Positions 27,783 to 61,474 of a stretch of DNA of 64,000 nt are shown in pieces. The notes beneath the pieces were generated by a model that saw only the letters and a list, made by a program, of their open reading frames with translations, did not search any database and was not told where the DNA came from. The stretch covers positions 62,001 to 126,000 of the forward strand of contig JAFDZV010000012.1 in the NCBI GenBank assembly GCA_018266795.1, read 5' to 3'. This DNA comes from Bacteroidota bacterium (GTDB taxonomy: Bacteria > Bacteroidota > Ignavibacteria > OLB7). The stretch's first letter is position 1. The number at the start of each line of letters is the position of its first letter. The translations under genes were made by a program, and so were the position numbers.

Positions 27783-30700
27783 CTACCGCACCACCACCAT
27801 CCTCGCAACCGCGTGCCGGCTGCCGGCGCGAAGATCGATCAGGTAATTGCCTGACGGCAGCCCGTGCGTATCAACATCCAGCGCGTACCGGCCATCATCC
27901 ATCACGGCTCCATCCACCAGGCGCCGCATCTCGTGCCCCGCGGCATCGAACAACGAGAGCGTGACCGGATCGCCACCGGAGACGGAGAAGAATACCTCCG
28001 TGTGCGATACGGCAAGGTTCGGCTGGGCTGAGAGCCGCAACTGCGAGGCGCCGCCATCAACCAGCCGAAGCTTCTGCATGCCGGCGGCATCAACATCCCA
28101 TTGCAACCCTGAAGCTCCATACTGCGAAAAGCCGGTCATCGCATCCAGCCGCATCGCGGCTGTATCGATCCGCAGCCGCACGTAGTAGCTGCCGCTCAAC
28201 AGGTTCAGATCCTTCGCTATCAGGTTCGCATACGTCGGCGTCCCCGGCGAGAGGCGGAAAGAATCGAGCGTGCAGAGAACCGTGTTGCTCGCGGAATCCA
28301 CCAGCTCCGCCACCAGCGTCACGCTCGATCCCGAGGCCCGTGCGGTATCGCCGTCGAACCGGCCGGAGACGTAGCACCCCACGGTGGTGGAGTCGTGCGT
28401 CCGGAACATTGTTGTGGTCATCAGCGACCGCAACGCCGGCAGGTCCGCCACGCCGTACGGATTCCCCGCGCTGAGATTGGCCGCCCACGGAGCCATCGGC
28501 ACCCCGGCGCTCAATGCCGGCCCGGCCATCCAGACATCGTGCAACTGGAACCGGTATGCCGCGAATGCCGTATCACTCAGGTGGATGGCCCCTTCCAGCC
28601 CCTGCGCAACATACCCATCCGGACCGCTCTTCGCGTAGAACTGCCGTGAGGTGTGGATGCTGGAGTACCGGAGGGTATCCGGCGCGGGAGGCATCTGGTA
28701 GATGCTGGAGTAGCGGAGCGGGAGCCGCACGTCCGCGCTCGCGCCGCTGGGCCGGTAGCCGTTCTGGATGTACTGCCGCTGCGGCGTGGCGGTGAAGTAG
28801 AGCGAGCCGTACTGGATCTGCGAGTTCGCCATCCCGACAAATGTGCTGATCACCGGCGGACGGGTACGGACGTTGATCGAGAGCTGCCGGTGTACCAGGG
28901 TAACGTAGGGCGCCTCGAACTGGTGCGCCGTGTCGATCGCCTGGTTCAGCGCGGAGGCGTTCGGGAACACCTGATTGTTCCACATCGATGCGCTGTAGTT
29001 CCCGAGCCATGCCAGCCGCTTCGTGCTCCATCCAGGCTCCGTGGGGCCGATGCTGTCCGGCACGCCCGGTACCACCGTTGCCGGCGTGCGAAGGCTCCGG
29101 AAGTTCAGCCAGGTCTCCCACCAGTAATTGCCGGCTTTGTCGTGGTTGGGCACGATCTCCTCCCATGTCACGCCGTCCAGCAGCCGGTGCCACACGTCCT
29201 GAAGCTGGTCCATGGATGGGTTGATTCCCATCGCGGACTCCGTGCTCACACGCAGCGTGTTGCGCGTGGTAATCGCATCGCCGCCACCGGCGGACTGGTG
29301 CAGCAGCCGTGCATACCAGATCGTCGGGAACGGTGAAAGCTGCTCCCAGGCAATCGCCACGTTGGAATCGTTCGCCCGGATATCCGCGAACGGTGGCATG
29401 GATGGGTATCGTGCATACCGGCCACTCCCCCGTATCGACGGCGTTACCGTATCGGCGCGTGGTGTCCAGGCTCCGGCCGCGCTCCAGACGCCAAGCCTCC
29501 GCCCGCGTGCCATGATCCCGTAGAGCGAATCACCCCAGGCTACCATGTCGCAGCCGTGCAGACGGCTCGCCACCGGCGTTCCCCAGGTGGAATCGATCTG
29601 CCCGTGCGCGATGCCGGCAAGCTCGATGGGCGCCATCAGCACCGTTCCCCCCTTCGAGAGCACCGCACGATAGTTCACCCGCCGGCCAACAGCGGCGGAG
29701 TCGCCGCCGTAATTGGTCCAGACCACCGAGACGATGGTGGAGTCGTTCCGGTTCCGGAGCGTGAGCGATGGAAATCGGTTCTCCAGGAACCGCGTCTCGT
29801 TGGTGGTGTCCGATACCGTGTACTCGATCGGCTCCCACTGTATGCCGCCAACGGTGTCCGCCATCGGGTAGGAACGGCGCAGGAAGACGGCATCGCTGGT
29901 GGTCGGGTGCTGGCTCTTCTTCGGCGCGCCGAACGGGAAAAAGCAGGTCTTCTGGTGCACATACGTTGCGTAATACCGCTCACCCGAATAGAGGAGCTTC
30001 TTCTGCGAGCTGCGGCGCAGTTCCGCCGGGCCAAGGGCCGTCTCCGGCGGGCAGTAGGTGATGCGGAGCAGGGCAGCCCCTCCCGGGCGGAGCGTGATGG
30101 CAAGCGTGCTGTCACCGTAGAGGATGGTATCCAGCCCGTGGCGTGGCTCATCGGCGAGCGGCAACCGTGTCGTGTCCGGCACGATCTCCCGCACGCGCAC
30201 GAAGTTGTACGCCTCGCCGTTCGGATGATGCAGATTGAGATCGAGCGTTATCCGCCGCGACTCGGCAAGCAGTTCCATCTTCTGCGCGTCTGCGCTGTCC
30301 GGACCATGAAGATCGATCCCGTCCGGCCGCTCGAACGCACGGCGGTTTACGATGAAGATATGGTTGGTATCGTAGAGAGGATTCGGGTTGCCCATGGCAT
30401 CGCGGCCGGGCTGGATGTCGAACAGGCCCAGTTCCACATAGGTTGCATAGGGAGGATCCACGGCGCCCGTTGTGAGCGACGCGGATGTTACCTGCGTCAC
30501 GATCTCACCGGCCGGCAACGTCCGGCTCGGACGCCTGCCGGGTATCATGTCCGTGGTGCCCGGCCTCGGCGCCTGCGCGTGGATGCTGTACCCGTCCCGC
30601 CAGCGGATCTTCGCCATCTCCGGGCCTATGCGGGCGAGCCAGGCGTTGATCCGCCTGACCTCGCGCGTGCGGTCACGCCAGCCGACGTAGACGTTGGGAA

Positions 30701-32750
30701 AGGTGACGCGAATGCTGTCGCCCGGATAGTGCCCCGCCGGAGGGTACCCCGGAATGCCCCACGCGTCCGCATCGGTCGCCACCAGGTCGATAACGTTCTG
30801 CGATGTATCGGAGGTGAGCGGCCCATTGGAGCCGAAGGAGTCCTGCCAGCCCACGCTGTCCATGGCATTGAGGAACTTCAACGTCCCTCCAAGCCAGTAC
30901 CATTCGATGCCGCGCGAGCCGTAGCAGAGCGCAAGGTTGGTGTTGACGCGGATCTCGGCGGCTTCGGGAATGTGATCCAGCAGCAGGTGAACGCCCGGGC
31001 CGCGCGCCGGATCCCGAAGCGACCAGATGGCGCAGTTCGTCCCGATCATCGAGAGCAGGCGCCGCCCGGAACGCCGGAACAGCTCCGCTCCATTTCCATG
31101 CGTTGCCGCCCAGCTCTGGCTGTATGGGTAGTCCCCGACGCCGGTTCCGTAGCGGCCAACAATCATGCGCTGCAGCGTTGTCTCGTAGATCTCCACGGAG
31201 TCCGCTGTCAATCCAAGTGCCTGCGCCCTGCTCCGGCCATCCCCCCCGTTGTGCAGCCGGAGGGAGGGGAGCTGCGAGAATGGAACTTCGTATTTGATGC
31301 TGTCGCCGTCGGGCTTGTCGTGCAGGGTCTCGGTCATCACCATCGGGAAGTTGATCCGCTCCTCGTAGCGCTGCATGGTGGTTGGCGTGTACCCGCCGAA
31401 GTTGTACAGGCCAACGGTGTCCGCAATCGCCGGCGCGGCCCGCTGGATGTTGAATGAATCGCGCACCATCCGGTTGATCATCCCCGTGCACTCATCCTCG
31501 AACGGCATCAGCTCGATCCCGGAGGAGAGCATGATAACGCCATTCCGGAACGGGGCCGCCGGCACCGTGTCCCCGGTGAGCAGCCGCCGCGCGGAGCGGA
31601 TCACCTGCGCCCGGTAATCGTCGCAGGCGGGCTGCTGCCCCAGGAGAAGCTGCCCGACCGAATCGCGCAGCGAAACGCTTCGGAGCGCAAGGCGTTCGTG
31701 GCCGGTCCAGTATACCCGGACATCGAAGCTCCTGGAGGGATTCCCCGCGAAGAGCGGGCCGGGCATGCCGTTGATGTCCCGGAGCAGATCCACCTTGAAG
31801 GCCGCCTCCTGGTACTTCCCTTCCGGCACGTTGTTGTTCGCCCGCAGAAAGTCCCGCTTGCGGACATAGAACGTTGCGTAAGGCTTTTCCAGATTGGTGG
31901 TTGCAACGATATGGTGCAGCGTGTCCGTGTAGAGGATGGAGTCCTTCGGGATGGTGTACCAGACCTCCAGCCGGAGGAGGAACGAATCGAGATCGTTCGT
32001 GGCTGTCGGATAGAACAGGTGGCCCGCCACGGCGATGTAGAGCGCCGGATGCTCCGCCGGTTTTCGCTGGCGTTTGATCCACCCGTCCGTGGTGTACGTG
32101 CTGTCCGCGCCGTGATCGGCCCACGTTCCGCCGATCTGTTCGTTCCGGTACAGATATCGCTGCGCCGGCTGGATATCGAACGCCATGCCGGAGGCTACCA
32201 TCTGACCGGGTGATGTATTAATGGAGGAATATTCCTGCTCGATTGTGCTATCCCCATTCTCGTTGCGTTCAAAGGCATTGTGGGCCATGCTTCCTCCAGA
32301 ACGTTGCGTGAACCTGCATATGAAGTAGCTCGACTGTGACGAGTCGAAGGGATAGAACTGGATGCCGTTGGAAAATCCCGCCTGCGGGAGCGGGTCCGTG
32401 GTCAACACCATCCGGTTCCAGTGCGGGCTGGTGGTGTCGGCAATGCGAAGCGCCGAGTTGTACAGCTTGGCGATGTTGGGGTAGTAGTCGCCGCTGCCGT
32501 TGTAGGTGAGCACGTTCACGCCGAGCGCCTGGAGGAAGTTCCAGAGGGAATCGATATGCGCCGTGTCCTGCGGCCGGACGGCAACCTGGGCCCCGATATA
32601 GAACTCGTTGTTCCCCACGCCGTACAGGTGCCGCAGCGGCGCCGGCTGCGCGCGAAGCGCATGCGACCCCGGCACGAGCAGCAATAGAATGGCAAGTGCA
32701 ATGCGTGGCAGGACCCGCATGGAGGCGGGCCCGCGTGAAGCGGTGTTCAT
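27783..32750 (-). CDS. Giant T9SS-secreted protein, family A copy 1
   Basis: A 1,655-residue protein; ATG 32750 has GAGGAG nine bases upstream. Residues 1-34 are a signal peptide ending ALRAQ. The central part near residue 600 has EIRVNTNLALCYGSRGIEWY, and later INAWLARIGPEMAKIRW and HIFIVNRRAFE, an order that recalls the end of a glycoside-hydrolase-like TIM barrel followed by a beta domain; this is inference. Around 1,050-1,200 PPFADIRANDSNVAIAWEQ suggests a propeller. The last 85 residues are a T9SS type A-like sorting domain (LSLFDAAGHEMRRLV, GLPSGNYLIDLRAG). The paralogue at 54769-59703 shares the order and many blocks at nearly the same positions. A family B gene lies just upstream. Confidence 0.8.
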   Translation of the reverse strand: MNTASRGPASMRVLPRIALAILLLLVPGSHALRAQPAPLRHLYGVGNNEFYIGAQVAVRPQDTAHIDSLWNFLQALGVNVLTYNGSGDYYPNIAKLYNSALRIADTTSPHWNRMVLTTDPLPQAGFSNGIQFYPFDSSQSSYFICRFTQRSGGSMAHNAFERNENGDSTIEQEYSSINTSPGQMVASGMAFDIQPAQRYLYRNEQIGGTWADHGADSTYTTDGWIKRQRKPAEHPALYIAVAGHLFYPTATNDLDSFLLRLEVWYTIPKDSILYTDTLHHIVATTNLEKPYATFYVRKRDFLRANNNVPEGKYQEAAFKVDLLRDINGMPGPLFAGNPSRSFDVRVYWTGHERLALRSVSLRDSVGQLLLGQQPACDDYRAQVIRSARRLLTGDTVPAAPFRNGVIMLSSGIELMPFEDECTGMINRMVRDSFNIQRAAPAIADTVGLYNFGGYTPTTMQRYEERINFPMVMTETLHDKPDGDSIKYEVPFSQLPSLRLHNGGDGRSRAQALGLTADSVEIYETTLQRMIVGRYGTGVGDYPYSQSWAATHGNGAELFRRSGRRLLSMIGTNCAIWSLRDPARGPGVHLLLDHIPEAAEIRVNTNLALCYGSRGIEWYWLGGTLKFLNAMDSVGWQDSFGSNGPLTSDTSQNVIDLVATDADAWGIPGYPPAGHYPGDSIRVTFPNVYVGWRDRTREVRRINAWLARIGPEMAKIRWRDGYSIHAQAPRPGTTDMIPGRRPSRTLPAGEIVTQVTSASLTTGAVDPPYATYVELGLFDIQPGRDAMGNPNPLYDTNHIFIVNRRAFERPDGIDLHGPDSADAQKMELLAESRRITLDLNLHHPNGEAYNFVRVREIVPDTTRLPLADEPRHGLDTILYGDSTLAITLRPGGAALLRITYCPPETALGPAELRRSSQKKLLYSGERYYATYVHQKTCFFPFGAPKKSQHPTTSDAVFLRRSYPMADTVGGIQWEPIEYTVSDTTNETRFLENRFPSLTLRNRNDSTIVSVVWTNYGGDSAAVGRRVNYRAVLSKGGTVLMAPIELAGIAHGQIDSTWGTPVASRLHGCDMVAWGDSLYGIMARGRRLGVWSAAGAWTPRADTVTPSIRGSGRYARYPSMPPFADIRANDSNVAIAWEQLSPFPTIWYARLLHQSAGGGDAITTRNTLRVSTESAMGINPSMDQLQDVWHRLLDGVTWEEIVPNHDKAGNYWWETWLNFRSLRTPATVVPGVPDSIGPTEPGWSTKRLAWLGNYSASMWNNQVFPNASALNQAIDTAHQFEAPYVTLVHRQLSINVRTRPPVISTFVGMANSQIQYGSLYFTATPQRQYIQNGYRPSGASADVRLPLRYSSIYQMPPAPDTLRYSSIHTSRQFYAKSGPDGYVAQGLEGAIHLSDTAFAAYRFQLHDVWMAGPALSAGVPMAPWAANLSAGNPYGVADLPALRSLMTTTMFRTHDSTTVGCYVSGRFDGDTARASGSSVTLVAELVDSASNTVLCTLDSFRLSPGTPTYANLIAKDLNLLSGSYYVRLRIDTAAMRLDAMTGFSQYGASGLQWDVDAAGMQKLRLVDGGASQLRLSAQPNLAVSHTEVFFSVSGGDPVTLSLFDAAGHEMRRLVDGAVMDDGRYALDVDTHGLPSGNYLIDLRAGSRHAVARMVVVR

Positions 32751-32898
32751 TGTTGTGATCTCCTCGAATTACTATCAGTGGACGTTTGAGAGTACCCGGC
32801 AGGCCGGGATGTGCTGTGGGGGATCAGAGAGTGTGGTTCGTGTGTCTGTTATTGATGATTGATTGATGATATGCCGGAACAGCCGCCAAACTGGCCGC

Positions 32899-34569: not shown

Positions 34570-34640
34570 ACTATGCTGCCTCCTTGATGACTCGCGCCGT
34601 CGCCAACAGACTGTTGTCATCACTGTAGATACTGAGGATA
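33895..34640. repeat. Long direct repeat, copy 1 (offset 1,678 bp)
   Basis: This stretch aligns with 35573-36318 at a constant offset of 1,678 bases. It covers the 5' half of one family B gene, the intergenic junction and the last codons of the gene upstream. Around the junction more than 60 bases in a row are identical (34573-34635 and 36251-36313). The rest differs at scattered, mostly synonymous sites. The repeat length equals one gene unit, as expected for a tandem duplication. Confidence 0.8.
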
Positions 34641-36247
34641 TAGATACCCGATGGCCGGTTGCCACACTGCCACACTGCCTCCCCTCTCCACGACTCCACA
34701 CGCCCCTCCGCAACGAGACGGCCAAGCATGTCATGTGCCGTGAAACGCGACGGCATGCGGTGCAGGTCACCCCGCCACGCAATATGCACCTCATCGCGAG
34801 CAGGGTTCGGCCAGATACTGATTGCCCGGGAGACACCCGCGATTGCCACATCGTTGACACCGATTGTTGCCGAATCGCGAGGGATGTACGGTCCACCGGC
34901 AAGAACGATCGCAATGCCCTGATCGAATCCGAACCACGATGGATTGGCCGTGATGTAATCATCCCAGCCATCGCCGTTACAGTCCGCAAGTGTGCCTCCC
35001 TGACCGAAAACGTTACCGTCAGTCAGCCCATCGCGTGCAGCAGAATAGAACGCATCAAACGCAAGATCGGGACCCCCCCTCCCCCCATTGAACACTTGCA
35101 TATCTTGAGAATAGACAACTACTGCATCGTAGTGACGCAACGAATCCGAAATGTAGCCCGCATGATCGTGTGTGATGCGGCCTGGCCAGCGCTGATCGGC
35201 ATCATCGTTCTTCAGGCTGCGCACATGAATGTTCTTCCCCGCACCGGAACGAAACAGCACAACGCCTTCAGTAGAGCTTCGCAGAAGATCACCGACACCA
35301 TCGCCATCACAATCCAGGATGGTAAACGTCGGCTGGCTTGAGGAGATATTAAGTCCCAGAGTATCGGTGCGACTGGGATAAGACGTGATATCGTTCCAGC
35401 TCCACGGTGCTCCATGTTCGCCCCAATAGATTCGCGACTTCCCTTTTGGCTTTTTGCCGTCGTTGAAATCGATATATGCACCGCTCGTGATTAGATCCGG
35501 CCGATGATCGCCGTCGAGATCGGCAATAGCAGCATAGAACATATCGCCGAAATTCGCCTCCGGATCGCGAACGATCACCGTGGGCGTGTCCACCTGGAAA
35601 TTCGGACCGCCCTTGTAGATCCAGATCTCCGCGTTGCTCGATTCCACGTTCCCGCGGAACAGACGGTACACCACTGCGATCAGCTCGTCCGCGCCGTCGC
35701 CATCCAGATCGGCCGCGTACATATCGTGGATTCCCGGGATCACCGAGGGGGTCATCGTCCGGTTCGGATCCATGATCAACGCCGGCGTGTCGGCAATCGC
35801 GCCGGTCTCGGTACGGTAGATCGCGAGAAAGAACCGCTGGTCGAACTGCACGCTGGGGTAGTAGATCCCGAAGCCAATCGCCTTGTGGCCGGTGCCCCAG
35901 AAATCGCCCACAACCGGATAGGCCGGAGCGGCAGCAGCAGAGTCCAGCGTCCAGATCGGTGTCGTGCTCGGCGCGGGACGTGCCCCCTTGTAGACGCGCC
36001 ACTGCGCAGCCTTACCGAAGCGGACGGCGAACTCTGAAATCGAATCGCCATCGATATCTCCGATACCGCCCGCTCCCTCTCCCACACGATCCTGCCCCGT
36101 TGTGCCGCCGCGCACCATCCAGATGCGATGCAGGAGCACCGCCTTCGGGTTGGCCACGATGGTATCCGATGCCTGCGCGTGTACACCACAGACCGCCCCC
36201 AGCAGAAGGCCGGCAACCGCCGCGATATGTTCAAGCCTGCGCTTCAT
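34571..36247 (-). CDS. FG-GAP/VCBS secreted protein with T9SS tail, family B copy 2
   Basis: A 558-residue paralogue of the preceding gene. Signal peptide and residues up to about 235 are almost identical to copy 1. The section from about 240 to 470 differs (AIADLDGDHRPDLITSG, ILDCDGDGVGDLLRSS, LADCNGDGWDDYITAN), while keeping the same D-x-D-G-D spacing. The sorting domain ends ILSIYSDDNSLLATARVIKEAA, closer to copy 3 than to copy 1. Its stop TAG lies one base before the ATG of copy 1, so the genes are translationally linked. ATG 36247 uses AAGGAGG at 36257-36263, inside the final codons of copy 3. Confidence 0.87.
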   Translation of the reverse strand: MKRRLEHIAAVAGLLLGAVCGVHAQASDTIVANPKAVLLHRIWMVRGGTTGQDRVGEGAGGIGDIDGDSISEFAVRFGKAAQWRVYKGARPAPSTTPIWTLDSAAAAPAYPVVGDFWGTGHKAIGFGIYYPSVQFDQRFFLAIYRTETGAIADTPALIMDPNRTMTPSVIPGIHDMYAADLDGDGADELIAVVYRLFRGNVESSNAEIWIYKGGPNFQVDTPTVIVRDPEANFGDMFYAAIADLDGDHRPDLITSGAYIDFNDGKKPKGKSRIYWGEHGAPWSWNDITSYPSRTDTLGLNISSSQPTFTILDCDGDGVGDLLRSSTEGVVLFRSGAGKNIHVRSLKNDDADQRWPGRITHDHAGYISDSLRHYDAVVVYSQDMQVFNGGRGGPDLAFDAFYSAARDGLTDGNVFGQGGTLADCNGDGWDDYITANPSWFGFDQGIAIVLAGGPYIPRDSATIGVNDVAIAGVSRAISIWPNPARDEVHIAWRGDLHRMPSRFTAHDMLGRLVAEGRVESWRGEAVWQCGNRPSGIYILSIYSDDNSLLATARVIKEAA

Positions 36248-36318
36248 ATTATGCTGCCTCCTTGATGACTCGCGCCGTCGCCAACAGACTGTTGTCATCA
36301 CTGTAGATACTGAGAATG
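35573..36318. repeat. Long direct repeat, copy 2
   Basis: The partner of 33895-34640, lying one gene unit (1,678 bases) to the right. It carries the 5' half of family B copy 2 and the last codons of copy 3. The pair offers a substrate for homologous recombination that would delete or duplicate exactly one gene in frame with its ribosome-binding site. Confidence 0.8.
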
Positions 36319-37910
36319 TAGACGCCAGCCGGGCGAGCGGAACAATTCCAGAGCGCCTCTCCCCGCCATGACTCTACACGTCCCTCCGCAACCTCGCGGC
36401 CAAGCATGTCATGGGCCGTGAAGCGCGCGGGCATGCGGTGTAGATCGCCGCGCCATGCGATATGCAGCTCGTCGCGAGCCGGATTCGGCCATACGGATAT
36501 CGCATCGCGCACGCCTGCAACCGCGATGTCATTTACACCGGAGGTGGAGTCATGGGGAATGTAGGGGCCGCCCGCCCAGACAACCGCTGTACCCTGGTTG
36601 AACCCTCCGGCGCCGGCATATCCTTCAATCATGTCGTTCCAACCATCGCCGGTAACATCACCCATTGGATACGAGAGACTGAATACCTGGCCTTGATAGT
36701 AGGCATCGTACATGCGATCGGGTCCATTCGTCCCTCCATTAAGAAGGAGCATCGTTGAAAGCGTCCCTTCTGCTCCCGCGATACCAAGCATCTCATAGCG
36801 CTTCGCGCTGTCGCTCAGATATCCGAAGCGCACCGGCGCACTGTAGTTCTCTCTGTAGAGCCGCCTGTCCGCATCGTTCATTGTAAGTGCGCGCGTATGA
36901 ATGCTCTTGCCGCCACCGGAGAGGTAGAGATACGTTGTATTGTTCGGAGTATCAGGAGCGGCGATATCCAGAACGCCATCCCCGTCGCAGTCCAGAGCTA
37001 CGAGGCCGCCGAACTGCACTTCGTGTTGTGGCGTTGTCCAGTTCCACGGCGAGCCCGGACTGCCGAACCAGAATTTCAGCTTGTCCGGGCCATCACGGTA
37101 GCTCAGGCTTACAGCAAGGTCCGGATACGAATCGTTGTCCCAGCGTCCGATATATATTCCCTGTCCACTGCTTACTGACTCATTATCACGAAGAATAACC
37201 GTTGGTGAATCCACCTGAAAACTGGTTCCGCCACGGTAGATTCAGATCTCTGCAAACGGGTCCAACGATCCGTTGCGCCGAACCCCTGTCATCAGGATAA
37301 TCAGTTCATCAGCGCCGTCGCCGTCCAGATCGGCCGCCACCACATCATTGATGCTCGTCAATGCCGGTGGGGTCATCGTGCGGGGGTCCATGATCACCGG
37401 ATGGGCCGTATCTATCGAACCGCTTTCGGTACGATACAGATACACCATATCGGTGTACTCGGTCCCGATAACACCGTTGCCGCGCAACCCGCCAACCGTC
37501 ACGTGTCCCGTTCCCCAGAAGTCCCCAACGATCGGATGATGCCCACCAACGTGCAGAATCATTGCCGGCGTCGTGCTCAACGGCTCCTTGCTGCCATAGA
37601 AAATGCGATAGCCATACTTCCTGTCCGATACGGCGAACTCGTTGATTCCGTCACCGTTGATATCCGGAATGCCGCCGACCCCCTGGCCAACGTAGTCATC
37701 CTCGTTGCCGTACACCGCCCAGGCTTGCCGGAGTTGGGCGGGGCCGGGGTTTGTCCGGGCGATGATGGTATCGGGGGGCTGGGCGTGCATCACTGTGACA
37801 AAAACCACTGCCAGGCCCACCATTAGCGAGACGACACGAAGGGATGGATTTCTGCACATGGGCACCGTTGGTATGCGTGTATTGAACTCAAATTGACGAT
37901 CGGATGACAT
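36249..37910 (-). pseudogene. Family B copy 3, interrupted by one in-frame TGA
   Basis: Two abutting open frames in the same phase make one family B protein of about 553 codons. The N-terminal part (from TTG/ATG near 37910; ATG 37859 is an alternative with the signal peptide MVGLAVVFVTVMHAQ) ends at TGA 37244-37242 after DPFAEI. The same frame continues IYRGGTSFQVDSPTV. Copies 1 and 2 read GEIWVFKGGPNFQVDTPTV and AEIWIYKGGPNFQVD, so TGA stands where the paralogues have Trp (TGG), a one-base change. Downstream the gene is intact, with FG-GAP loops and a full T9SS tail ending VIKEAA. It could be a fresh pseudogene, a read-through gene or a sequencing error. Confidence 0.8.
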
Positions 37911-41192: not shown

Positions 41193-41319
41193 TCTCGGAA
41201 CGGTGGTTTCCGGCACATACGGAATGACGGTTCCGGTGAGAATGGTGGCCCGATGATGTGTTTACAGGATGACCGGATGTGCGTGACGATTGAACGCTAT
41301 TAGCACGGCCCAATCAACG

Positions 41320-42966
41320 ATGAGCAACAGCATACGATATGGATCGCAACACGATACGCCGCGCGCGCGATTCGCCGCGGCAGTGCTGCTCGCCGCGTTC
41401 CTGGTTTCCTGGGCACTCCCCTCATCCACACAGGCACAGCCCGCGCGTTCCGAGGTGATGACGAGCCAGACCAGCGCAATCGAATTCTACGCCTCCAACT
41501 ACGGCGAGTTCGGCGTCAACGTGGCGACGGGCGGCGCCGGTTTCTTCTATCCGCGTGGAAGCCACAATCAATACATGTTCGGATCGGGTCTCTGGTTCGG
41601 CGCCATCAAGAACGTGAACAGCGTCCCGACGAAACTCTTTTTCCTGACCTACAATCCGAACAGCGGCGCAAGCTGGGCAACGCCGGGCGAGCGAAGCGAC
41701 TACGTTTCGTACGCACCGCTCTACAACTCCAACGATTACGATCTCAAGACCGGTGCGAACATCAAACCGGGAACTCCTCCCTACCGGATGCAGAGCTGGC
41801 CGCTCTGGCTGGTCAACGGCGGGATCAAGCCGGCGCCGCTCTCTCCCGGAATTTTCGTAGCGGACACGGCACTGCGCAAGGTTGGCGCGCTCCCGAAATC
41901 GCTGCCGGCTTTCATGCCCGGCGTGCAGGAGCAGATGATGGCGCGCTTCAACGATGCCGACATGCAGCAATACGAGCTCCGCGACACCGCTCAGCGCGTT
42001 GGATACCCGCTGGGGCTGCAGATACAGCAGAATATTTATTCCTGGAATATCGGGCGATTCCAGAACGTTGTTCTGCTGCAGTACGACATCATCAATTCCT
42101 CCCGCGATACGCTGCACGACTGCGTTGTTGCACAGGCCAGCGACCCCGATATCGGCAACAACTCCAACGACCATGTCCGGTATTACGAGGAGGCACCCGA
42201 GCTCCGTTCCGCGTATGCATGGACCGATCCGGAGGAGAAGAAGTATGCGGCACTCGTCATGACGTTGATCGAGGCGCCCACGACCAACGACGATGGATTT
42301 ATCGACAACAGAAATCGGATGAAATACCGGGTGGAGGGACGCATCGGCACGTTCCCGCACTGGACGGTGGAAATGGATCCCACAACGCTGAGCCAGCGCT
42401 ACGATTTCATGACCATGCCGGATTTCACCGTTGATGACAGGGCTTCCGATATTCGCGCATTGCTCGCCAGTACGAAGTTTTCCATGAAGCCGGGAGATAC
42501 GGCGCACTATGCGATGGCATACATAGTACTGGACAGCATCCCGGAATACGGACGCGCGCTGTACGGCGGCGAACCCCATCGGACGCTGGCGAAACTCCCA
42601 ACCCGGTCGGCACAACTCGAGGCCACCGTTGGCGCGCTGCTCGACGCCTATTACCTGAAGGGTTTCGACGAACCCTCGGCGGTCCCATCCGTGTGGGAGA
42701 ATGCAAACGGTATTCGCATCGCATCGATGCCGAACCCTGCTCGCGACGCCACGGTGCTCGCGTTCGCACTTCCACAGGGCGGCGATGCCAGCATCCGGCT
42801 GACCGATGCGCTTGGCCGCACGGTGATGGAGCGCAGCCTGGGGCACCTCGAGGCTGGGTCCTATCGGGAGACGATTGATCTCTCCGCACTCCCGGCCGGC
42901 TTCTACATGGCGGCCGTAAATTCCGGAGGCGCCGTGTCCGCTATGCGCCTTATCGTCACGAAATAG
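41320..42966 (+). CDS. T9SS-secreted protein, family C copy 1
   Basis: A 548-residue exported protein; ATG 41320 precedes a signal peptide ending SSTQAQ. The mature part has blocks shared with the next gene: EFYASNYGEFGVNVATGGAG, FYPRGSHNQYMFGSGLWFG, YNPNSGASWATPGE, SWPLWL, MPGVQEQMMARFNDADMQQY and IQQNIYSWN. A motif DPDIGNNSNDHVRYYEE follows. The C-terminal 80 residues form a T9SS type A-like sorting domain (RIASMPNPARDATVLAFALP, DLSALPAGFYMAAVNSG). Its function is unknown; I do not recognise the family. It and the next gene form a tandem pair of paralogues. Confidence 0.82.
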   Translation: MSNSIRYGSQHDTPRARFAAAVLLAAFLVSWALPSSTQAQPARSEVMTSQTSAIEFYASNYGEFGVNVATGGAGFFYPRGSHNQYMFGSGLWFGAIKNVNSVPTKLFFLTYNPNSGASWATPGERSDYVSYAPLYNSNDYDLKTGANIKPGTPPYRMQSWPLWLVNGGIKPAPLSPGIFVADTALRKVGALPKSLPAFMPGVQEQMMARFNDADMQQYELRDTAQRVGYPLGLQIQQNIYSWNIGRFQNVVLLQYDIINSSRDTLHDCVVAQASDPDIGNNSNDHVRYYEEAPELRSAYAWTDPEEKKYAALVMTLIEAPTTNDDGFIDNRNRMKYRVEGRIGTFPHWTVEMDPTTLSQRYDFMTMPDFTVDDRASDIRALLASTKFSMKPGDTAHYAMAYIVLDSIPEYGRALYGGEPHRTLAKLPTRSAQLEATVGALLDAYYLKGFDEPSAVPSVWENANGIRIASMPNPARDATVLAFALPQGGDASIRLTDALGRTVMERSLGHLEAGSYRETIDLSALPAGFYMAAVNSGGAVSAMRLIVTK

Positions 42967-43005
42967 AAAGCGTCTCGCACAGAGGTTCTCCACACCTCAA
43001 AGGCT

Positions 43006-43050
43006 CACGGGCTTCATTTCCGGAAACGGAAGTGAAGCCCGTGTGATTTT
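43006..43050 (+). terminator. Rho-independent terminator after family C copy 1
   Basis: CACGGGCTTCA (43006-43016) pairs perfectly with TGAAGCCCGTG (43033-43043), followed by TGATTTTT. Position, stem and T-run make a good intrinsic terminator, so the two family C genes are separately terminated. Confidence 0.85.
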
Positions 43051-43194
43051 TCGGTGCCGATGGCGCACCTGCGGCACGCCATGCCGTTCACACTACCATG
43101 CACTTCCATTGGCATGATAATTATTTGCCTTGCAACTGAGAAGATTATCGGCGGCGATTGTTGGATGTATGGTACCAAGTTCAACGGACGTTGA

Positions 43195-43211
43195 GTTAAG
43201 GAGCGCTTAAC
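43195..43211 (+). promoter_or_regulatory. Dyad upstream of family C copy 2
   Basis: The inverted repeat GTTAAG-GAGCG-CTTAAC lies about 35 bases upstream of ATG 43245, within the likely promoter/leader region. TGGAGGA nine bases before the ATG is the ribosome-binding site. The dyad could be an operator; no partner is known. Confidence 0.35.
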
Positions 43212-43244
43212 AGAAACGTATATCAATACTGGAGGAATTACCTC

Positions 43245-44834
43245 ATGACACGATTACTTGCCACGATCTGCATAATGCTTGCGATCGCGATGTCGAGTAC
43301 TTCGGCGCAGTTCCCGGTGTTCGAGGCGAGAGAGTCCATCGCCAGCAGCGTGGAATATTACGCTACCAATTTCGGCACGTTCGGACTGAACGCTGCAACC
43401 AACCAGTCCGGCTTCGTATATCCGCGCGGCAGCGGCAGGCAGTACATCTTCGGTGCCGGTCTGTGGTTCGGATGCAAGAAGATGGTGCAGGGAGCGCTCC
43501 AACCGGCGGTGTTCGTAACGTACAATCCCAACTCCGGAGCCAGTTGGGCATACCCGGGCGAGAGCGACAGCTCTTCGCCAACAACGCAGCTCTTCAACTC
43601 GGTGGAATACGATCACCAGACCGGCGCCTACAACGGAGTACGCACACCGGCAATGGTTGAACACTGGCCGCTCTGGCTGTTGCCGGGTATGAAGCCCGGT
43701 CCGCTCAGCGAGGGGACCTACGAGCCTGTGGAGGCGGACCGCTCTGCGAACGGCAACAAGTACTACTCCGGCCCGGCATTCATGCCCGGTGTGGACGAGC
43801 AGTTCGTGGCGCGTTTTCACGACGGCAATCTCTCGCGATACGAGATGGGACCGAAGGAGACGGCCGGCATCTTTCCAATCGGACTGCAGATGCAGCAGAA
43901 CATCTACAGTTGGTCCACCGGGCCGTTCCAGTCCACCGTGGTGCTTCAGTACAGGATCGAGAACGTCTCCGGCACGACGCTCTACGACTGCGTGGCCTCC
44001 GGCATCGAGGACATCGACATCGGCAACCCCGCCAACGATCAGTGCCGCTTCTATTCGGAGCACCCGGAGTTGCGGACGGGATATTGCTGGAGCGATCCGA
44101 AGGACTCCATGGGCAGAGGATCCGGTGCGGTTGCGGTAACATTGATCGAGGCGCCGATGACCGATGCCAAGGGCTTCGTGGACAACAGCCGGCGCGCGGA
44201 GTTCATGCTCAAGGGGCGCGTTTCAACGTACAGGTCGTACGGTGTGACGGAGGATCCCGTGAACTCCGTGGAACGGTATGCATTCATGACCTCCGGCAAG
44301 CTGGATGGCGACAAGGGGCCGATGGACGTACGGAACTGCATCAGCGGCCAGAGCTTCAGCATGCATCCCGGCGATGTGGCATACTTCACGGTTGCCTATA
44401 CCGTTGTGGGTCACGTTCCGGAGATGGGCAAGGCCGGGCATGGCGGAATCACCGTTCCGGCTTCCGGCGGAGCAACGGAGTTGGAAGGGATACTCACCCC
44501 GTTGATGCAGGCGTACTTCGGCACGGGGGGGTTCGAGAACGTTGCCGCCGTCCCGGTCACCGGCACCACACGGGCCAACGGAACGCTCACGGCGCTTCCC
44601 AACCCGGCCACGTCGAACCTGACGCTTCGCTTCGCGATCGATGAGCCATCCGAGGTCAGCATCGATCTCGTGAACACACTCGGCGCAACGGTGCTGACGA
44701 AGTCGCTCGGCATGATGTCCGCAACGGAGCATGAGGAACGGCTGGATTGTTCCACGCTGCCGGCCGGGCTGTATCTGGCAACGATACGCTACGCCGGCGG
44801 GCGCGTCACGACGCAGTGCGTGATAGCGCACTGA
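43245..44834 (+). CDS. T9SS-secreted protein, family C copy 2
   Basis: A 529-residue paralogue of the upstream gene. Signal peptide MTRLLATICIMLAIAMSSTSAQ, then the same blocks: YYATNFGTFGLNAATNQSG, YPRGSGRQYIFGAGLWFG, YNPNSGASWAYPGE, HWPLWLLPGMKPGPLSEGTY, MPGVDEQFVARFHDGNLSRY, MQQNIYSWS, and DIDIGNPANDQCRFYSEHPE. It ends with a T9SS type A-like domain (LTALPNPATSNLTLRFAIDE, DCSTLPAGLYLATIRYAGG). GGAGGAATT before the ATG is a good ribosome-binding site. Two cysteines near CVASGIEDIDIGN and QCRF might pair. Its function is unknown. Confidence 0.82.
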   Translation: MTRLLATICIMLAIAMSSTSAQFPVFEARESIASSVEYYATNFGTFGLNAATNQSGFVYPRGSGRQYIFGAGLWFGCKKMVQGALQPAVFVTYNPNSGASWAYPGESDSSSPTTQLFNSVEYDHQTGAYNGVRTPAMVEHWPLWLLPGMKPGPLSEGTYEPVEADRSANGNKYYSGPAFMPGVDEQFVARFHDGNLSRYEMGPKETAGIFPIGLQMQQNIYSWSTGPFQSTVVLQYRIENVSGTTLYDCVASGIEDIDIGNPANDQCRFYSEHPELRTGYCWSDPKDSMGRGSGAVAVTLIEAPMTDAKGFVDNSRRAEFMLKGRVSTYRSYGVTEDPVNSVERYAFMTSGKLDGDKGPMDVRNCISGQSFSMHPGDVAYFTVAYTVVGHVPEMGKAGHGGITVPASGGATELEGILTPLMQAYFGTGGFENVAAVPVTGTTRANGTLTALPNPATSNLTLRFAIDEPSEVSIDLVNTLGATVLTKSLGMMSATEHEERLDCSTLPAGLYLATIRYAGGRVTTQCVIAH

Positions 44835-51779: not shown

Positions 51780-51793
51780 CAGACCGGCCGTTT

Positions 51794-54062: not shown

Positions 54063-54104
54063 GCGATGGTTGCAGGCGGCATCCCCCCCCCGGGACATGC
54101 TGCC

Positions 54105-54735: not shown

Positions 54736-54768
54736 AGGTACGGCACATCGCCCGAGGCGTGCTTCCTC

Positions 54769-57700
54769 TCAACGGCGTACAATCATCTGCGTCACGCTCC
54801 TGTTCCTGCCGGAGCGCAATTCCACCAGATACGTTCCACAGGCAAGCTCGCGCGTGTCGATCCCAAGGGCGTAGCGCCCTTCCTGCAGCATGCGATGCTG
54901 CACGATTGCAGATACAATGGAACCGGCTGCATCGTATACAGTAAGCGAGACATCGTCGTTGCCCGGCACGGAAATTCGGAGTTCTCCGGCCCCCGCAATT
55001 GGATTCGGATAGGCCGAAACACGGAGTGCAGATGCCGTTGCCGCCACAAGCCGCAGCTTCGCCGCGACATCCTCCTCCACTGGCATGGTGATCTCCTCCA
55101 CCGGATACAGTGCAGCATGCACCACAGCCACCACACGAACATCCACCGGCTCGATGCGCATGCGGACGTAGTATGTACCGGAAAGCAGATCCAGATCGCG
55201 GGTGATGTTCACCGCGTAGGAATCGAGCGTGGAGGCAATCGCAAACGAATCCAGTTGTGCAACAACCCGGTCGCCGGCGGAATCCATCAGCTCTGCGATG
55301 AACTCCACATGCATGCCGCCCGCACACCCGGTATCACCGGCGAATCGTCCGGCCAGGGAGCAGCCGATCGTCGTTGAGTCGTGGGCCTGGAAGCATTTTG
55401 TTCTGAAGAGCGTCCGGACGCGGGCAAGGCTGTCGGTTCGCAGCAGCGAATCGGCTCGCGAGGCCATCTCGACTGCAAACGCTCCCGATGGCCCCGATAT
55501 CCATACATCGTTCAGCGTTCCGCTGATGGCGGTTGGGATGGAATCGGAAATTCGGAAGTAGACACGCCGCCCCTGTGCCATATAACCCTGCGGCCGTTCC
55601 TTCGCAAAGAACTGTCGCGACGTCTCAATTCGCCCCTGTGCCGCCGCCCCATTGCTCATCGCGAACAGTGTTGCATGCCTGCCCTGCTGCCGTGTTGGAG
55701 AGGCTGCTCCGCTGGGATTGAATCCCCCGATCAGATATGCTTCGGGAGATTGCCAGATGAATGATTTCGCATACTCAACGATCGACTGCTGCATCGGTTT
55801 GCAGCCGTTGATCGGACTCGTCGCAACCGAGAAGTTGATCCTCTCATGCACACTGTCGTCATGCGTTGTCATGCGTGCGTTGATGCTCGAGGTGCTGGGA
55901 AACACCGGCTGATCGGACAGCCCTGGCACTGTTGCCGCAAGCGTCGTGTTGTATGTCCACTGCCATGGATTCTCGATGCAGTCGAAATACGGCCTCCATC
56001 GATCGTGATGCGATGTGTCGGGATCGCAGCTCCGTGACGTCTCCGTCCAGAGGCTGCTGAAATGCACCCACGTCTGTCGGTAGAATAATCCCTTCAACGC
56101 ATCGTATATCGGCGAGAAGCTTTCCCAGGTGATCCCCTCCTGCGCACCGCACCAGACATCCTGGGTCATATCCATGGAGGGATGCTGATGGTTGGTGGCG
56201 TCGTTCTGACTCACCATCATGCGATTCTTCACCGTCACGTAATGCGTATCGCGGCTGTCGACCGTGTCCACCAACCGAGCGTAGGCAATGGCAGTGCCTC
56301 CTCCCACGGGCTGCTGCCATGCGATGCCCACACTGGAGTCGTGTCCGGCGATGTGCGCGAACGGGGGCATGGTAGGATACTGTTCAATGCCGGAACGAAG
56401 ACCGGCGCTCACAACCGTATCGCACACTGCATACGTTCCCGGCAGGTTCCACCAGGCAGCGTTGGTATCGAGCCTTCGGACCTTGGCCACGATGCCGCGC
56501 GCGCTGTCCGCGTAGGCAATGATGTACGATCCATGCAGACGGCTGACTACCGGTGTCCCCCATTTCGAGTCGTCCGCACCTCCCGCAATGCCGACCGTAT
56601 CGATAATCAAGCTCACCGTGGGTGGGGCATTCATATCGTTTGCAGGTGCATATACATTCCGGGCGAAGATCGGCCGCGCCCGCCCCTGGTTCATATTGTT
56701 GTATGAACTCCAGACAATCGTGACAACACGGTCATTGGGCTTCGTACTGTCCGCACGTACGGTGAGCGATGGGAATCGATTCTCGAGATAGTGACCGTCG
56801 TGGGCCGTATCGGAGATCAGCACTTCCGCTCCGGCCTGCGGATCCCAACGGATGGCACCTGTTTCGTTCGAGATTGGAAGCGACCGGCGATAGTACACCT
56901 CGTCGGACCAGACCGTATCCTGTTTCCGCTTGAGCGGCGGTGCGTAAAACCGGGTGCGGCGTACGTATACCGCATGCCAGAACGTGCCGTCGAACACGAG
57001 CTTCCGCTGATTGTTCATGGGGGTTGATCCCGTAAAGACAACATCGTTCGGTTTGCAGTACGTGATGCGGATCAGCGCACCGCCACCGGGTCGCATCCAG
57101 AGCGCGAACACACTGTCCGCCCGAACGATCGTGTCCAGGCCGGCCCGGGGCTCCCGGGCAAGCGGGAGGCGATTGGTATCCGGTTCAACCTCCACGATGT
57201 GCAGGAAGTTGTATTGCGATGAGTCGGGATGATGGATGTTGCGGAGCCGTACAACCAGACGGCGCACGTCGGCCAGAGTGTCCAGCCGACGTCCGAGTTC
57301 CGTTGTATCGGGTATGTCGCCGGGGCGCTCGAACGTCCGGCGATTCACCAGAAAGATGCTGTTCGTATCGTAGAGCCTGTTCGGGCGGCCGCTGGAATCA
57401 ACGCCGGGATTGGTATCGAACAGCCCCAGTTCCACAAACGTATCCGAGTCGGCATCGGGATGTCCATCGCGATCGTACGCCGTGATATACTCAACAATTG
57501 TCGAGTCGTCGAGGTTACGTGCGTGCGACTGTGTCAGCGTGTCACCGGCCATCCACGATTGATCGTGACGGAAATACATCGAGTATCCGTCCAGCCAGCG
57601 CAGCCCGGCCATCGCAAGGCCGATGCGCGAAAGCCAGCCATTCATCCAACGCATCTCGTTGTACCTGTTCCCCCAGCCCGTGTAGAAATCGGCCACCTCG

Positions 57701-59703
57701 AAATGTTTCTGCGCGTAGTGTGTCGGGTCCGCATCGCCCCCTTGAAGTATCAGACGATCCAGGTGATTTTCGCGCATGTCGCTGCGCCAGCCGACGGGCC
57801 CGAAATCGTTGTAGAACTGAAACGGCCGGGTTACATCCGGAGAGGAGGAAGCGTAGAATTCGGACGAGTCCGATCCGATCCACGAATAATGAACCCCTCT
57901 GGACCCGTAACAGAGCCCCAGATTGATCATCATTCGGATTTCGGACGCCTCCTCCACCCGGGAGCGAATGGTGTCGAAACCATGAGGCGTGGTGTCCGGC
58001 ACTATGCGAAACGGGGCATGAACGCAGGGCCACTGGATAATCCGTTTCCCGGTACGGCGCGATGCCCATGCCGCATGACCAAGCTCATCCGCCCACGAGA
58101 ACCAGTACGGCCAGCCTTCGGCTCCGGGTACGTACGCCCCAACGTGCAGCCGCTGATACGCGCGCGTGTACGATGTGTCGATGCATCCACGCGTTGGCAC
58201 CAGCAACGGAATATGAAAGCGGCCGCCGTTGTGTTCGGCAAGGGAGGCCGGCTGCACCTGAGAAACACCATACCAATCGAGGTGATTTACCGGCGGCAAT
58301 TCATTGATCACATCGCCCGGATATGTCTCCACGCAGATCTCCGGCTGGTGATCGTATGCCTGCTGAACAAGATTGTGATGCCACTGGTTGGCCCGAAATG
58401 CCCGGATGCCATAGGTTATGGTGTCGCCGAACGGGAATGTATTCCAGAGGAGGGTATCGAAAATGTCGTACGTCTGATGCTCGAAATATTTCCCCTCGTC
58501 ACCGGAATAGAAGCGAATAATGGGGCTTTGCTCCACCTGCAGAAGCGACGGCCCGTACACCGCTCTCCGGACGGAGTCCAGTATCGCTGCGCGATACGCC
58601 GTGCATGAATCATCATCCGCAGCCATCAGGTAGGCCGTGGCATCGCGAACGGTAACGCTCCTGAGCGCCGTACCTGCAACACCGGTCCATCGCACTCTGA
58701 TATCGAAACGATGTGCGGTGTTGATGTCGTTCAACGGACCTCCGGGGCCGTTGGGATCCGCCCTGTCGAGATCCACCGCGAACGTCTTCCGCTGATACAG
58801 GTTGTAGTTCGGATGTTGCGGATCCTGCGGCGTCAGATCGCGCTTCCGGACGAGAAAGGTCTGATAGAGATAGGACGTATCGGCCAGCGCCGTCTGCGAG
58901 TTTCCGTTGCCGTCCAGAAATCCGCTCATCTTCGGGATCTCACACCATAACTCGACAGCCAGTATGGAATCATCCATCCCCTCGTCCCCCCCTCCCTTGC
59001 CGTCCGGTGCGAACATGTGCCCCGTTATGGTGATGTAATAGGTAGGATTGCGCACCGACTCCGGGTGAGGAACAAGGAACTGGCTGCTGTTCGGGACGTG
59101 CGGATCGTACGCATACCTCTCGAAGCGATCGTCATGAACGGAATCATCGGCTCCAAACGCGATGTGTTGCGCCACCAGCGCGCCGGGGGGCAGGCTGTCA
59201 CCGATGAGATACACCCGTTCGTGCGGATGTGAAACGCCACCATCGTTCTCATCGGGGTTTACCTGAAGCAGACCGCGCCGGCAGTCCATGAACACATTGC
59301 GATAGGCGTAGAAGTCCGTGGTATCGAACGGATAGAATGTCACGGACCTTCCGTAGCCCACTTCACTCAACGAGGGGATGTTCGCTATCAGATGGTGCGG
59401 GCCGGCTGCATCGCGCAGCTCATCGATGGCGCCCATGTCGCTGGTAATTACCTCAAGTGTGCCCAGCCCCAGCGTGTCGGCAAACTGCCATGCGGCCGCG
59501 AGGCCACCACGCGGATTTGTGGCCAGACGGCCACCGATATAGAAGCTGTCGAGGCTGAATCCATACGACCGCATTCGCGGCATTGGTGAATCGAGCGGCG
59601 GCTGCGCCCGCAATGTGCCGGAGAATAGTATTATTGCGAGAGAAAAGACAATAAAAATCCCCCGGCGCCACGAAATCCGTGGCGTCGTGCCGTGCCGGTA
59701 CAT
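54769..59703 (-). CDS. Giant T9SS-secreted protein, family A copy 2
   Basis: A 1,644-residue paralogue of the protein at 27783-32750. ATG 59703 has AAGGGGG seven to eight bases upstream (a TTG at 59709 is two codons further out). The signal peptide ends SGTLRAQ. Shared blocks in the same order are EIRMMINLGLCYGSRGVHYS near residue 600, WLSRIGLAMAGLRWLDGY, SIFLVNRRTFERP, FLHIVEVEPDTNRLPLAREP near 845 and MRPGGGALIRITYC. The glycoside-hydrolase-like reading of the CYGSRG region is inference. The last 85 residues carry a T9SS type A-like domain (VSLTVYDAAGSIVSAIVQHR, CGTYLVELRSGRNRSVTQM). A family B gene ends 73 bases upstream on the same strand, as with copy 1. Confidence 0.8.
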   Translation of the reverse strand: MYRHGTTPRISWRRGIFIVFSLAIILFSGTLRAQPPLDSPMPRMRSYGFSLDSFYIGGRLATNPRGGLAAAWQFADTLGLGTLEVITSDMGAIDELRDAAGPHHLIANIPSLSEVGYGRSVTFYPFDTTDFYAYRNVFMDCRRGLLQVNPDENDGGVSHPHERVYLIGDSLPPGALVAQHIAFGADDSVHDDRFERYAYDPHVPNSSQFLVPHPESVRNPTYYITITGHMFAPDGKGGGDEGMDDSILAVELWCEIPKMSGFLDGNGNSQTALADTSYLYQTFLVRKRDLTPQDPQHPNYNLYQRKTFAVDLDRADPNGPGGPLNDINTAHRFDIRVRWTGVAGTALRSVTVRDATAYLMAADDDSCTAYRAAILDSVRRAVYGPSLLQVEQSPIIRFYSGDEGKYFEHQTYDIFDTLLWNTFPFGDTITYGIRAFRANQWHHNLVQQAYDHQPEICVETYPGDVINELPPVNHLDWYGVSQVQPASLAEHNGGRFHIPLLVPTRGCIDTSYTRAYQRLHVGAYVPGAEGWPYWFSWADELGHAAWASRRTGKRIIQWPCVHAPFRIVPDTTPHGFDTIRSRVEEASEIRMMINLGLCYGSRGVHYSWIGSDSSEFYASSSPDVTRPFQFYNDFGPVGWRSDMRENHLDRLILQGGDADPTHYAQKHFEVADFYTGWGNRYNEMRWMNGWLSRIGLAMAGLRWLDGYSMYFRHDQSWMAGDTLTQSHARNLDDSTIVEYITAYDRDGHPDADSDTFVELGLFDTNPGVDSSGRPNRLYDTNSIFLVNRRTFERPGDIPDTTELGRRLDTLADVRRLVVRLRNIHHPDSSQYNFLHIVEVEPDTNRLPLAREPRAGLDTIVRADSVFALWMRPGGGALIRITYCKPNDVVFTGSTPMNNQRKLVFDGTFWHAVYVRRTRFYAPPLKRKQDTVWSDEVYYRRSLPISNETGAIRWDPQAGAEVLISDTAHDGHYLENRFPSLTVRADSTKPNDRVVTIVWSSYNNMNQGRARPIFARNVYAPANDMNAPPTVSLIIDTVGIAGGADDSKWGTPVVSRLHGSYIIAYADSARGIVAKVRRLDTNAAWWNLPGTYAVCDTVVSAGLRSGIEQYPTMPPFAHIAGHDSSVGIAWQQPVGGGTAIAYARLVDTVDSRDTHYVTVKNRMMVSQNDATNHQHPSMDMTQDVWCGAQEGITWESFSPIYDALKGLFYRQTWVHFSSLWTETSRSCDPDTSHHDRWRPYFDCIENPWQWTYNTTLAATVPGLSDQPVFPSTSSINARMTTHDDSVHERINFSVATSPINGCKPMQQSIVEYAKSFIWQSPEAYLIGGFNPSGAASPTRQQGRHATLFAMSNGAAAQGRIETSRQFFAKERPQGYMAQGRRVYFRISDSIPTAISGTLNDVWISGPSGAFAVEMASRADSLLRTDSLARVRTLFRTKCFQAHDSTTIGCSLAGRFAGDTGCAGGMHVEFIAELMDSAGDRVVAQLDSFAIASTLDSYAVNITRDLDLLSGTYYVRMRIEPVDVRVVAVVHAALYPVEEITMPVEEDVAAKLRLVAATASALRVSAYPNPIAGAGELRISVPGNDDVSLTVYDAAGSIVSAIVQHRMLQEGRYALGIDTRELACGTYLVELRSGRNRSVTQMIVRR

Positions 59704-59776
59704 AACCAACCCCCTTGAAAAACGTTGTGCTTGACGGCGGGAGTGCGGAGAATACTATGGAGCTACTCTTGCGTCC

Positions 59777-61474
59777 CTATTGTTTTATTATGCGTTTCGT
59801 GGCAATACGAAGATCATTTCTATCGAGAATCGTCACGAAGTAGATCCCAGGCGGAGCCGTTCCGATATCCAATATTGCAGAACCTGTCATTGGATCGGCT
59901 GTCGCGTGAATGATCTCATCCCCGAGCATGTCGTAGACGATGAATCGGGAGGGCATGCGATGCAGATCGCCGCGCCAGGCCACATGAACCTGCTCGCCGG
60001 CCGGAAGCGGCCACACGGTAATTGCCTGGTCATGCCCCTCTCCCGCTATTGCATCCACCCCTGCCGCATGCGGCAAGGGGATATAGGGACCACCATGGTA
60101 GATGGTCGCGCGGCCGCCATACAGCGACGCCGTCGGATCTCCTGTGATGTAATCGGCCCAGCCGTCGCCATCTGCATCGGGAATGGCCCTGCCAGAGGCG
60201 CTGGGTGTGATATAGGCGGCATATGAATTCTCCGGCCCGTCCGATCCACCGGAAAAGAGCATATAGGAGGGAGCGCCAGCCGTATCGAACTCCGCCTTGC
60301 CGAGAACAAGCATTTCGTATCGCTGCGAGCTATCGTTGAGGAAGCCACCGCTGGCGTGATCGTATCTTCCGATGAATATTTTGCTCGCGCTTGCGCTGTC
60401 GAACCCATCGGTGCGGGCGTGCCATCCGGCGCCGGATCTGAACAACCATGTCCCCACATTCGGCAGGAAGACTTTGTCTACGGCGATGTCGGTAATGCCG
60501 TCGCCGTCACAATCCAATGCGGTAACACCGATTTCCGCTGTGGGCAGGTCGGGAGTCAGATCCACGATTCGCCGATACTTCTCATCGGCAAGATGCTCGA
60601 TGCTGTCACTTCCCCAGTAGAACGTGATATGATTGAACGGAAGTTCACTGAACCCACGGCTGAGCAGAATGTCCGGCCATTGATCGCCGTCGAAATCTCC
60701 AATCGTTGCATGAACGGGACCAATTCCATTCCGGTACGGATGTTTGATAATGACCGGCTCCGATGCGAGGCTGAAGTTCGGACCACCTTTGAAGATCCAC
60801 ATCTCCGGATATTCGGAAGTTCCCGAATCCAGACGGATGCCGCCGTGCACCAGTATCAACTCGTCGTAACCGTCGCGATTCAAATCGGCGGAGAGGATTG
60901 CGTCCGGCCCCGTTGAATAGCGCCGCGGACTCATGGCGCGCGTATCGAGCACGGTAAATGGCGAGTCGGCGATACGGCCATTCTCCGCCCGGTACAATCG
61001 GAGCTGATAGGAATACAGCCACGCTCCCGTTGTCGTATCCAGTTGAAAGCGAAACACACCGATCGATCGTTCCGACGTGCTGGAGAAATGCCCTACAATC
61101 AGGCTGTTGCCGGCAACGGTATCGAATACGTGGATCGGTGTGACGGTATTTGAAATATCATGGCTGGAATCGTGCGGATCGTGGTAATAGATGCGCCATT
61201 GGTCGAGCCCCTCTGCATACACGGCCCATGCGTTTCTGCCTTCACCGAAAACGCCGGGCAACCCCTCCACTTCACGCCCGATCTTGTTGCCGGAATCCAT
61301 GGGACCCAGGATACTCCAGATCGGCACAAGTGGTACGGCGTCCGGCATGGCACTTATTCGCACCGCATTCTGCGCCTGCGTTACGGAACGCGCGGCGATC
61401 GTACAGACCAGGAGCACCAGCGCATGGCGGAACAGTCTGCAACGCAACCACGTTGTATGGCATACGGTAAACAC
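59777..61474 (-). CDS. FG-GAP/VCBS secreted protein with T9SS tail, family B copy 4
   Basis: About 565 residues. Calcium-loop repeats are visible: LSADLNRDGYDELILVHGG, IGDFDGDQWPDILLSRG, ALDCDGDGITDIAVDK and IPDADGDGWADYITGDP. The T9SS type A-like tail reads VWPLPAGEQVHVAWRGDLHR, IVYDMLGDEIIHATADPM and PGIYFVTILDRND, close to copies 1-3 though diverged. The signal peptide LVLLVCTIAARSVTQAQ lies near the start. GTG 61474 is chosen, but the frame is open to 61639 and no good ribosome-binding site settles it. It shares WRGDLHRMPSRF with the other copies. It stands 73 bases before the family A gene, repeating the B-A order found at 27.8-34.6 kb. Confidence 0.82.
   Translation of the reverse strand: MFTVCHTTWLRCRLFRHALVLLVCTIAARSVTQAQNAVRISAMPDAVPLVPIWSILGPMDSGNKIGREVEGLPGVFGEGRNAWAVYAEGLDQWRIYYHDPHDSSHDISNTVTPIHVFDTVAGNSLIVGHFSSTSERSIGVFRFQLDTTTGAWLYSYQLRLYRAENGRIADSPFTVLDTRAMSPRRYSTGPDAILSADLNRDGYDELILVHGGIRLDSGTSEYPEMWIFKGGPNFSLASEPVIIKHPYRNGIGPVHATIGDFDGDQWPDILLSRGFSELPFNHITFYWGSDSIEHLADEKYRRIVDLTPDLPTAEIGVTALDCDGDGITDIAVDKVFLPNVGTWLFRSGAGWHARTDGFDSASASKIFIGRYDHASGGFLNDSSQRYEMLVLGKAEFDTAGAPSYMLFSGGSDGPENSYAAYITPSASGRAIPDADGDGWADYITGDPTASLYGGRATIYHGGPYIPLPHAAGVDAIAGEGHDQAITVWPLPAGEQVHVAWRGDLHRMPSRFIVYDMLGDEIIHATADPMTGSAILDIGTAPPGIYFVTILDRNDLRIATKRIIKQ

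Follow-up and report, generated by a model that had tools for sequence, protein, structure and literature searches.

The window analysed here, a stretch of 64,000 nucleotides from a genome of the class Ignavibacteria, carries two loci in which an FG-GAP repeat protein (B) is encoded directly upstream of a giant secreted protein (A). Comparison of the sequences gives good support to the view that A and B are a co-inherited pair with a common export signal. The module may serve to bind and cleave polysaccharide at the cell surface, a function to which we give roughly an even chance. The initial annotation knew of no described system of this kind, and a literature search likewise found no description of the B-A pair in open-licence papers.

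The four reading frames first reported for the two modules are all open on the minus strand (Table 1), the gaps of 148 and 73 nucleotides between B and A are correct, and the CYGSRG and RLPLA blocks common to A1 and A2 lie where they had been placed. In pairwise alignment, A1 and A2 are 33% identical from end to end (E=0), and B1 and B2 are 34% identical (E=2e-87). The description of a duplicated two-gene module holds for the two B-A loci, but it understates the arrangement, since B genes stand in tandem in places and the paralogue sets are old. Upstream of B1 stand two more B genes that the initial annotation lacked; the gene order of module 1 is B''(broken)-B'-B-A, with a spacing of 1 base both between B1 and B1' and between B1' and B1''. 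B1' is 70% identical to B1, while B1'' is 45% identical and contains a TGA in frame. The B1 and B1' proteins are nearly identical over 210 residues and then drop to about 30–50% identity in the middle. The similar tract contains 45 silent differences and 7 in codons with an altered amino acid, which shows the B protein to be under purifying selection; the 45 silent differences also disfavour recent gene conversion alone as the source of the likeness. A recent local duplication of the modules is rejected, as A1 and A2 fall into different clades of a tree of the barrel part, where A1 clusters with a gene of the same genome (L041) and A2 with one of a congeneric genome (L091). By these sequence relationships modules 1 and 2 are old paralogues, and the A and B families are old sets of paralogues that grow and decay.

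Table 1. Features of the two B-A modules, in positions of the window.
Feature	Position	Strand	Basis or remark
A1, giant secreted protein, 1655 aa	27783..32750	-	ORF and translation, homology to A2, AF2 models
A1 C-terminal T9SS-type sorting tail, residues 1577-1653	27792..28022	-	TIGR04183 E=0.016, below cut-off
A1 propeller-like region, about residues 905-1250	29001..30038	-	AF2 (pTM 0.54), Foldseek
A1 E413 codon, candidate catalytic acid	31512..31514	-	conservation, directly after a model strand
A1 inserted jelly roll, about residues 146-363	31662..32315	-	AF2 secondary structure, Foldseek
B1, FG-GAP protein, 556 aa	32899..34569	-	ORF, Pfam
B1', second FG-GAP B gene	34571..36247	-	first 210 residues nearly the same as in B1
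B1'', third B gene, likely pseudogene	36249..37910	-	TGA at 37242-37244
A2, giant secreted protein, 1644 aa	54769..59703	-	T9SS tail above cut-off
B2, FG-GAP protein, 565 aa	59777..61474	-	ORF, homology to B1, Pfam

Two further cargo-like genes of the window (41290-42966 and 43245-44834) lie outside families A and B. In addition, positions 9464-15051 contain long overlapping frames on both strands (1275 aa on the minus strand; 548, 523 and 493 aa on the plus strand), and the plus-strand frames have no match in Pfam.

When A and B were searched at one threshold in 294 genomes of the class, the same four genomes were positive for both. All four belong to the family of the window, and a fifth genome of this family has neither A nor B. 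Gene order was read in 26 regions of the family, and 13 loci in the four genomes have B as the same-strand neighbour immediately upstream of A, a count of loci that does not equal a count of independent events. These are both window modules, L092, L093, L096, L097 (twice), L098, L100, L101, L102, L103 and L123, and at the last of them a remote B precedes a remote A. Several of the A genes among them are shortened or carry frameshifts. B is missing at two long A genes (L041, L091), and A at a few B genes (L045, L094); as the genomes are drafts, frameshifts and absent neighbours may partly be assembly faults. The pairwise distances of A and B correlate in a mirror-tree comparison of 11 pairs (r=0.71, permutation p=0.001; p=0.004 with labels shuffled within genomes only), as is expected if the pairs travel together, with a signal that rests largely on the sets L097/L098/L102 and L096/L103.

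The arrangement is also found elsewhere in the class. A profile search with A recovered remote homologues in other families (profile-profile probability 99.4%). In a second family, 11 of the 80 genomes searched have A, and the upstream sequence is sufficient for a reading at 15 long A genes. At 14 of these the next gene upstream, in the same orientation, is an FG-GAP gene, separated from A by 4–38 bases or slightly overlapping it, and at the fifteenth locus (L173) a B-like gene lies downstream of A instead. The upstream genes that were scanned with Pfam have both FG-GAP repeats and a T9SS tail. The region between the barrel and the tail of A is frequently a beta helix in this family, and this variation of the middle part leaves barrel, tail and upstream propeller as the conserved elements. 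Over the two families together, the upstream sequence can be read for 30 long A-type genes, and the immediate upstream neighbour of 27 of them is an FG-GAP gene, which bears out the earlier proposal of a recurrent pair; the outcome that would have spoken against it, namely A mostly without a B neighbour, was not found by co-occurrence and gene order in either family. One FG-GAP neighbour of this kind, immediately before a remote A, occurs in a third family (L195). Some A-like genes of families f5, f10 and f13 are preceded by different T9SS proteins, including several BNR-type propellers, and these remote or weak A matches were left out of the support count. At two loci of G027 (L127:10147-16289 and L128:3728-8909), 3–4 tandem T9SS proteins of about 425–483 aa are encoded upstream of remote A-like genes, and several of these array proteins contain PSII_BNR propellers. 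A used as a single-protein query found nothing in named genomes, and a five-row alignment of its conserved blocks matched three MAGs, two labelled Chlorobiota bacterium and one Armatimonadetes bacterium SJ842.

A and B are predicted cargo of the type IX secretion system. All four proteins had been described as ending in a T9SS type A-like domain; of these domains only that of A2 is over the curated cut-off, while B1 and B2 fall below it and A1 gives a weak NCBIfam match. Relatives of A and of B have T9SS tails above the cut-off. Furthermore, the T9SS translocon protein SprA (TIGR04189) is found above its cut-off in all six genomes tested, the home genome included. A copy of the tail of A1 has recently been dispersed: the final 305 bases of the gene recur at L044:1525-1829 (G000 contig C21), 296 of them identical, in a frame of 197 aa from which the rest of A is absent.

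Tail and partner are absent together. Seven short A genes stop close to the end of the barrel-sandwich part and have no sorting tail (L043, L090, L099 and L104; L170, L174 and L178), and a B gene is upstream of none of them. They are polyphyletic and interspersed with long A genes in the barrel-part tree, where L043 groups with A1 and L041 (support 100), L090 with A2 and L091 (92), and L170 with the long L172 (100). The pooled association between A length and an upstream B gives a Fisher p=1e-5, which is overstated since the loci are related. One short tail-less A (L170:5140-10443, G148) comes after genes for Gfo/Idh and DegT aminotransferase, which is a setting of sugar-nucleotide biosynthesis.

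A1 consists of a signal peptide, an interrupted barrel into which a jelly roll is inserted, a beta sandwich, a propeller-like part and a T9SS-type tail, in this order. Pfam and NCBIfam match nothing in A1 except the weak tail, and in A generally they match only the export tail, with no CAZy-type Pfam model and no described glycoside hydrolase (GH) family among the matches; a search by sequence also found no related solved structure. An AlphaFold2 (AF2) model of the N-terminal half (residues 30-905, 17-row alignment) has a pTM of 0.82 and displays the strand-helix alternation of an interrupted barrel, with the jelly roll inserted and the beta sandwich last. Its top Foldseek matches are GH106 enzymes (6q2f, E=1.4e-7; 5mqm), followed by GH30, a xylanase, GH27 and GH35, and the insert matches the ligand-binding jelly rolls of Eph receptors. 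According to the model, the N-terminal half has a beta/alpha barrel, as read from the strand-helix order and the GH neighbours in Foldseek; the whole-chain TM-scores against these matches are 0.16–0.28, which limits the claim to the fold class. The term glycoside-hydrolase-like used in the initial annotation is thus apt at the level of the fold (GH106, GH30, GH27 and GH35), but it has no sequence-family match behind it. The model of the C-terminal half (pTM 0.54) lies near the propellers of integrin alpha, sialidase and GH43/GH32. A and B had also been called unrelated, and by sequence they are, although part of A may itself be a propeller in view of this model.

Several residues of A are conserved far beyond the window. 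E413 is kept in 15 of 15 sequences from the window's own family, and among 36 homologues from several families it is present in 34, E599 in 35, G611 in all 36 and W717 in 35, while N802 is found in 33/33. In the majority of relatives E413 lies within a 'DEP' motif. The barrel resembles clan GH-A (GH30, GH35, GH10) in having a conserved glutamate directly after the strand counted as fourth. The nucleophile of clan GH-A is at the end of barrel strand 7; unlike in these enzymes, A lacks a glutamate at this position, and E599, the second acid, is off the end of strand 7. With GH106 alpha-L-rhamnosidases (6q2f; BT_0986, 5mqm) A shares a barrel in the N-terminal half, beta-sandwich domains and a large chain, but the whole-chain TM-score of 0.25–0.28, the identity of 7–8% and the absent Pfam match set it apart.

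B was first suggested to be perhaps a calcium-loaded propeller, and the sequences agree with this prediction. B1 matches PF01839 (46.6 bits) and PF13517 (46.3 bits) and B2 matches PF13517 (52.1 bits), all over cut-off, and the DxDGD-type (calcium-type) loops are conserved across the B alignment. FG-GAP repeats above the cut-off and loops of this type are shared with FG-GAP/integrin-alpha propellers, and likeness to the PL11 and lambda-carrageenase (CGLA) propellers is limited to sub-threshold Pfam matches. Unlike all of these, B1 and B2 are bacterial T9SS-type proteins that are considered together with A. A phage origin of B is rejected, as no viral contig encodes a relative; a viral fold search of A gave weak partial matches only.

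The likely substrate is polysaccharide, to judge by the enzyme-like barrel whose acids are near-invariant, the accessory beta domains, the calcium-loop propeller of the partner and the short A beside sugar-biosynthesis genes. In the proposed mechanism, one or more FG-GAP propeller proteins (B) encoded directly upstream of the giant barrel protein (A) would leave the cell together with it by type IX secretion and presumably be anchored at the cell surface. A and B would then act jointly, probably in contact, and their target would be a polymer outside the cell, most likely a polysaccharide. B would bind and hold the polymer or a partner through its calcium-loop propeller, and A would bind the polymer with its accessory beta domains and cleave it with the GH-like barrel, for which E413 is the candidate catalytic residue. 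The lack of a CAZy-type Pfam match and of a solved-structure match by sequence speaks against this mechanism, as do the low whole-chain TM-scores, the position of E599, the long A genes with no B, the B genes with no A and the absence of TonB/SusD-type uptake genes from the pair. It is more tentatively suggested, with doubt somewhat outweighing confidence, that A founds a new family of glycoside hydrolases or lyases and that B-A is a new T9SS-exported surface unit for polysaccharide processing with a dedicated propeller partner.

Alternatively, the pair might be a non-enzymatic surface adhesin or contact apparatus, in which the barrel of A has a scaffolding role or is no longer catalytic, and B, as an integrin-like FG-GAP head, recognises neighbours or surfaces. 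The best-known FG-GAP propellers are those of integrin alpha chains, which the modelled C-terminal half of A resembles, and the A and B paralogues diverge fast and decay, as do surface-recognition families. However, the near-invariance of E413 and E599 over 36 divergent homologues suggests a kept active site, and the short tail-less A genes retain the barrel and both acids and drop the accessory parts, so we consider an adhesin unlikely.

Chance adjacency of A and B is rejected by the 14 of 15 loci of the second family and by a control in the home genome, where a B-like propeller is upstream of none of 19 sampled other tail-bearing genes. The same control bears on the idea that cargo genes of one export system merely cluster and are co-regulated, with no joint work. 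About 60 tail-bearing genes of similar kind are present in the home genome and some adjoin each other, for example at 41290-44834 of the window, but the control result, the B-then-A order kept in two families and the correlated distances make this explanation improbable. Least probable of all is that B has no substrate itself and is dedicated to the export or assembly of A, which it would aid through the T9SS or mount on the surface: B accompanies only tail-carrying A genes, and some remote A-like genes of other families have a BNR-type T9SS propeller upstream as if propellers were interchangeable, yet the long A genes L041 and L091 have no B nearby, the majority of other T9SS cargo has no such partner, and B retains its own sorting tail and calcium-type loops.

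The proposed surface unit for polysaccharide binding and cleavage can be compared with SusC/SusD of polysaccharide utilisation loci, a conserved adjacent pair of surface proteins with many paralogues per genome. A-B would at most work alike, by analogy of an adjacent pair with many paralogues. Unlike SusC/SusD, it includes no TonB-dependent transporter or SusD lipoprotein, uptake genes of these types not being found in the pair, and both of its members look like T9SS cargo.

If the pair works as a unit, then a Bacteroidota class seen mostly in metagenomes possesses a surface system of its own that consists of T9SS cargo, and a barrel family that has no Pfam entry becomes a candidate new CAZyme family with a testable residue, E413. 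Moreover, the link between the tail and the partner gene offers a simple way to ask if T9SS cargo proteins join with one another at the surface, and in what manner.

Further T9SS-type proteins accompany members of both families. A third family of about 880–1040 aa (L042:1669-4302, L044:1970-4714 and L094:9284-12394) is encoded directly downstream of an A gene, of the dispersed A tail and of a lone B, respectively. In addition, G000 encodes two tail-bearing giants of 1661 and 1521 aa that are not A (L217:1476-8065 and L211:54-6081). Shortly upstream of each is a frame of 460–530 aa with one DxDGD motif, and these are perhaps similar pairs of unrelated families.
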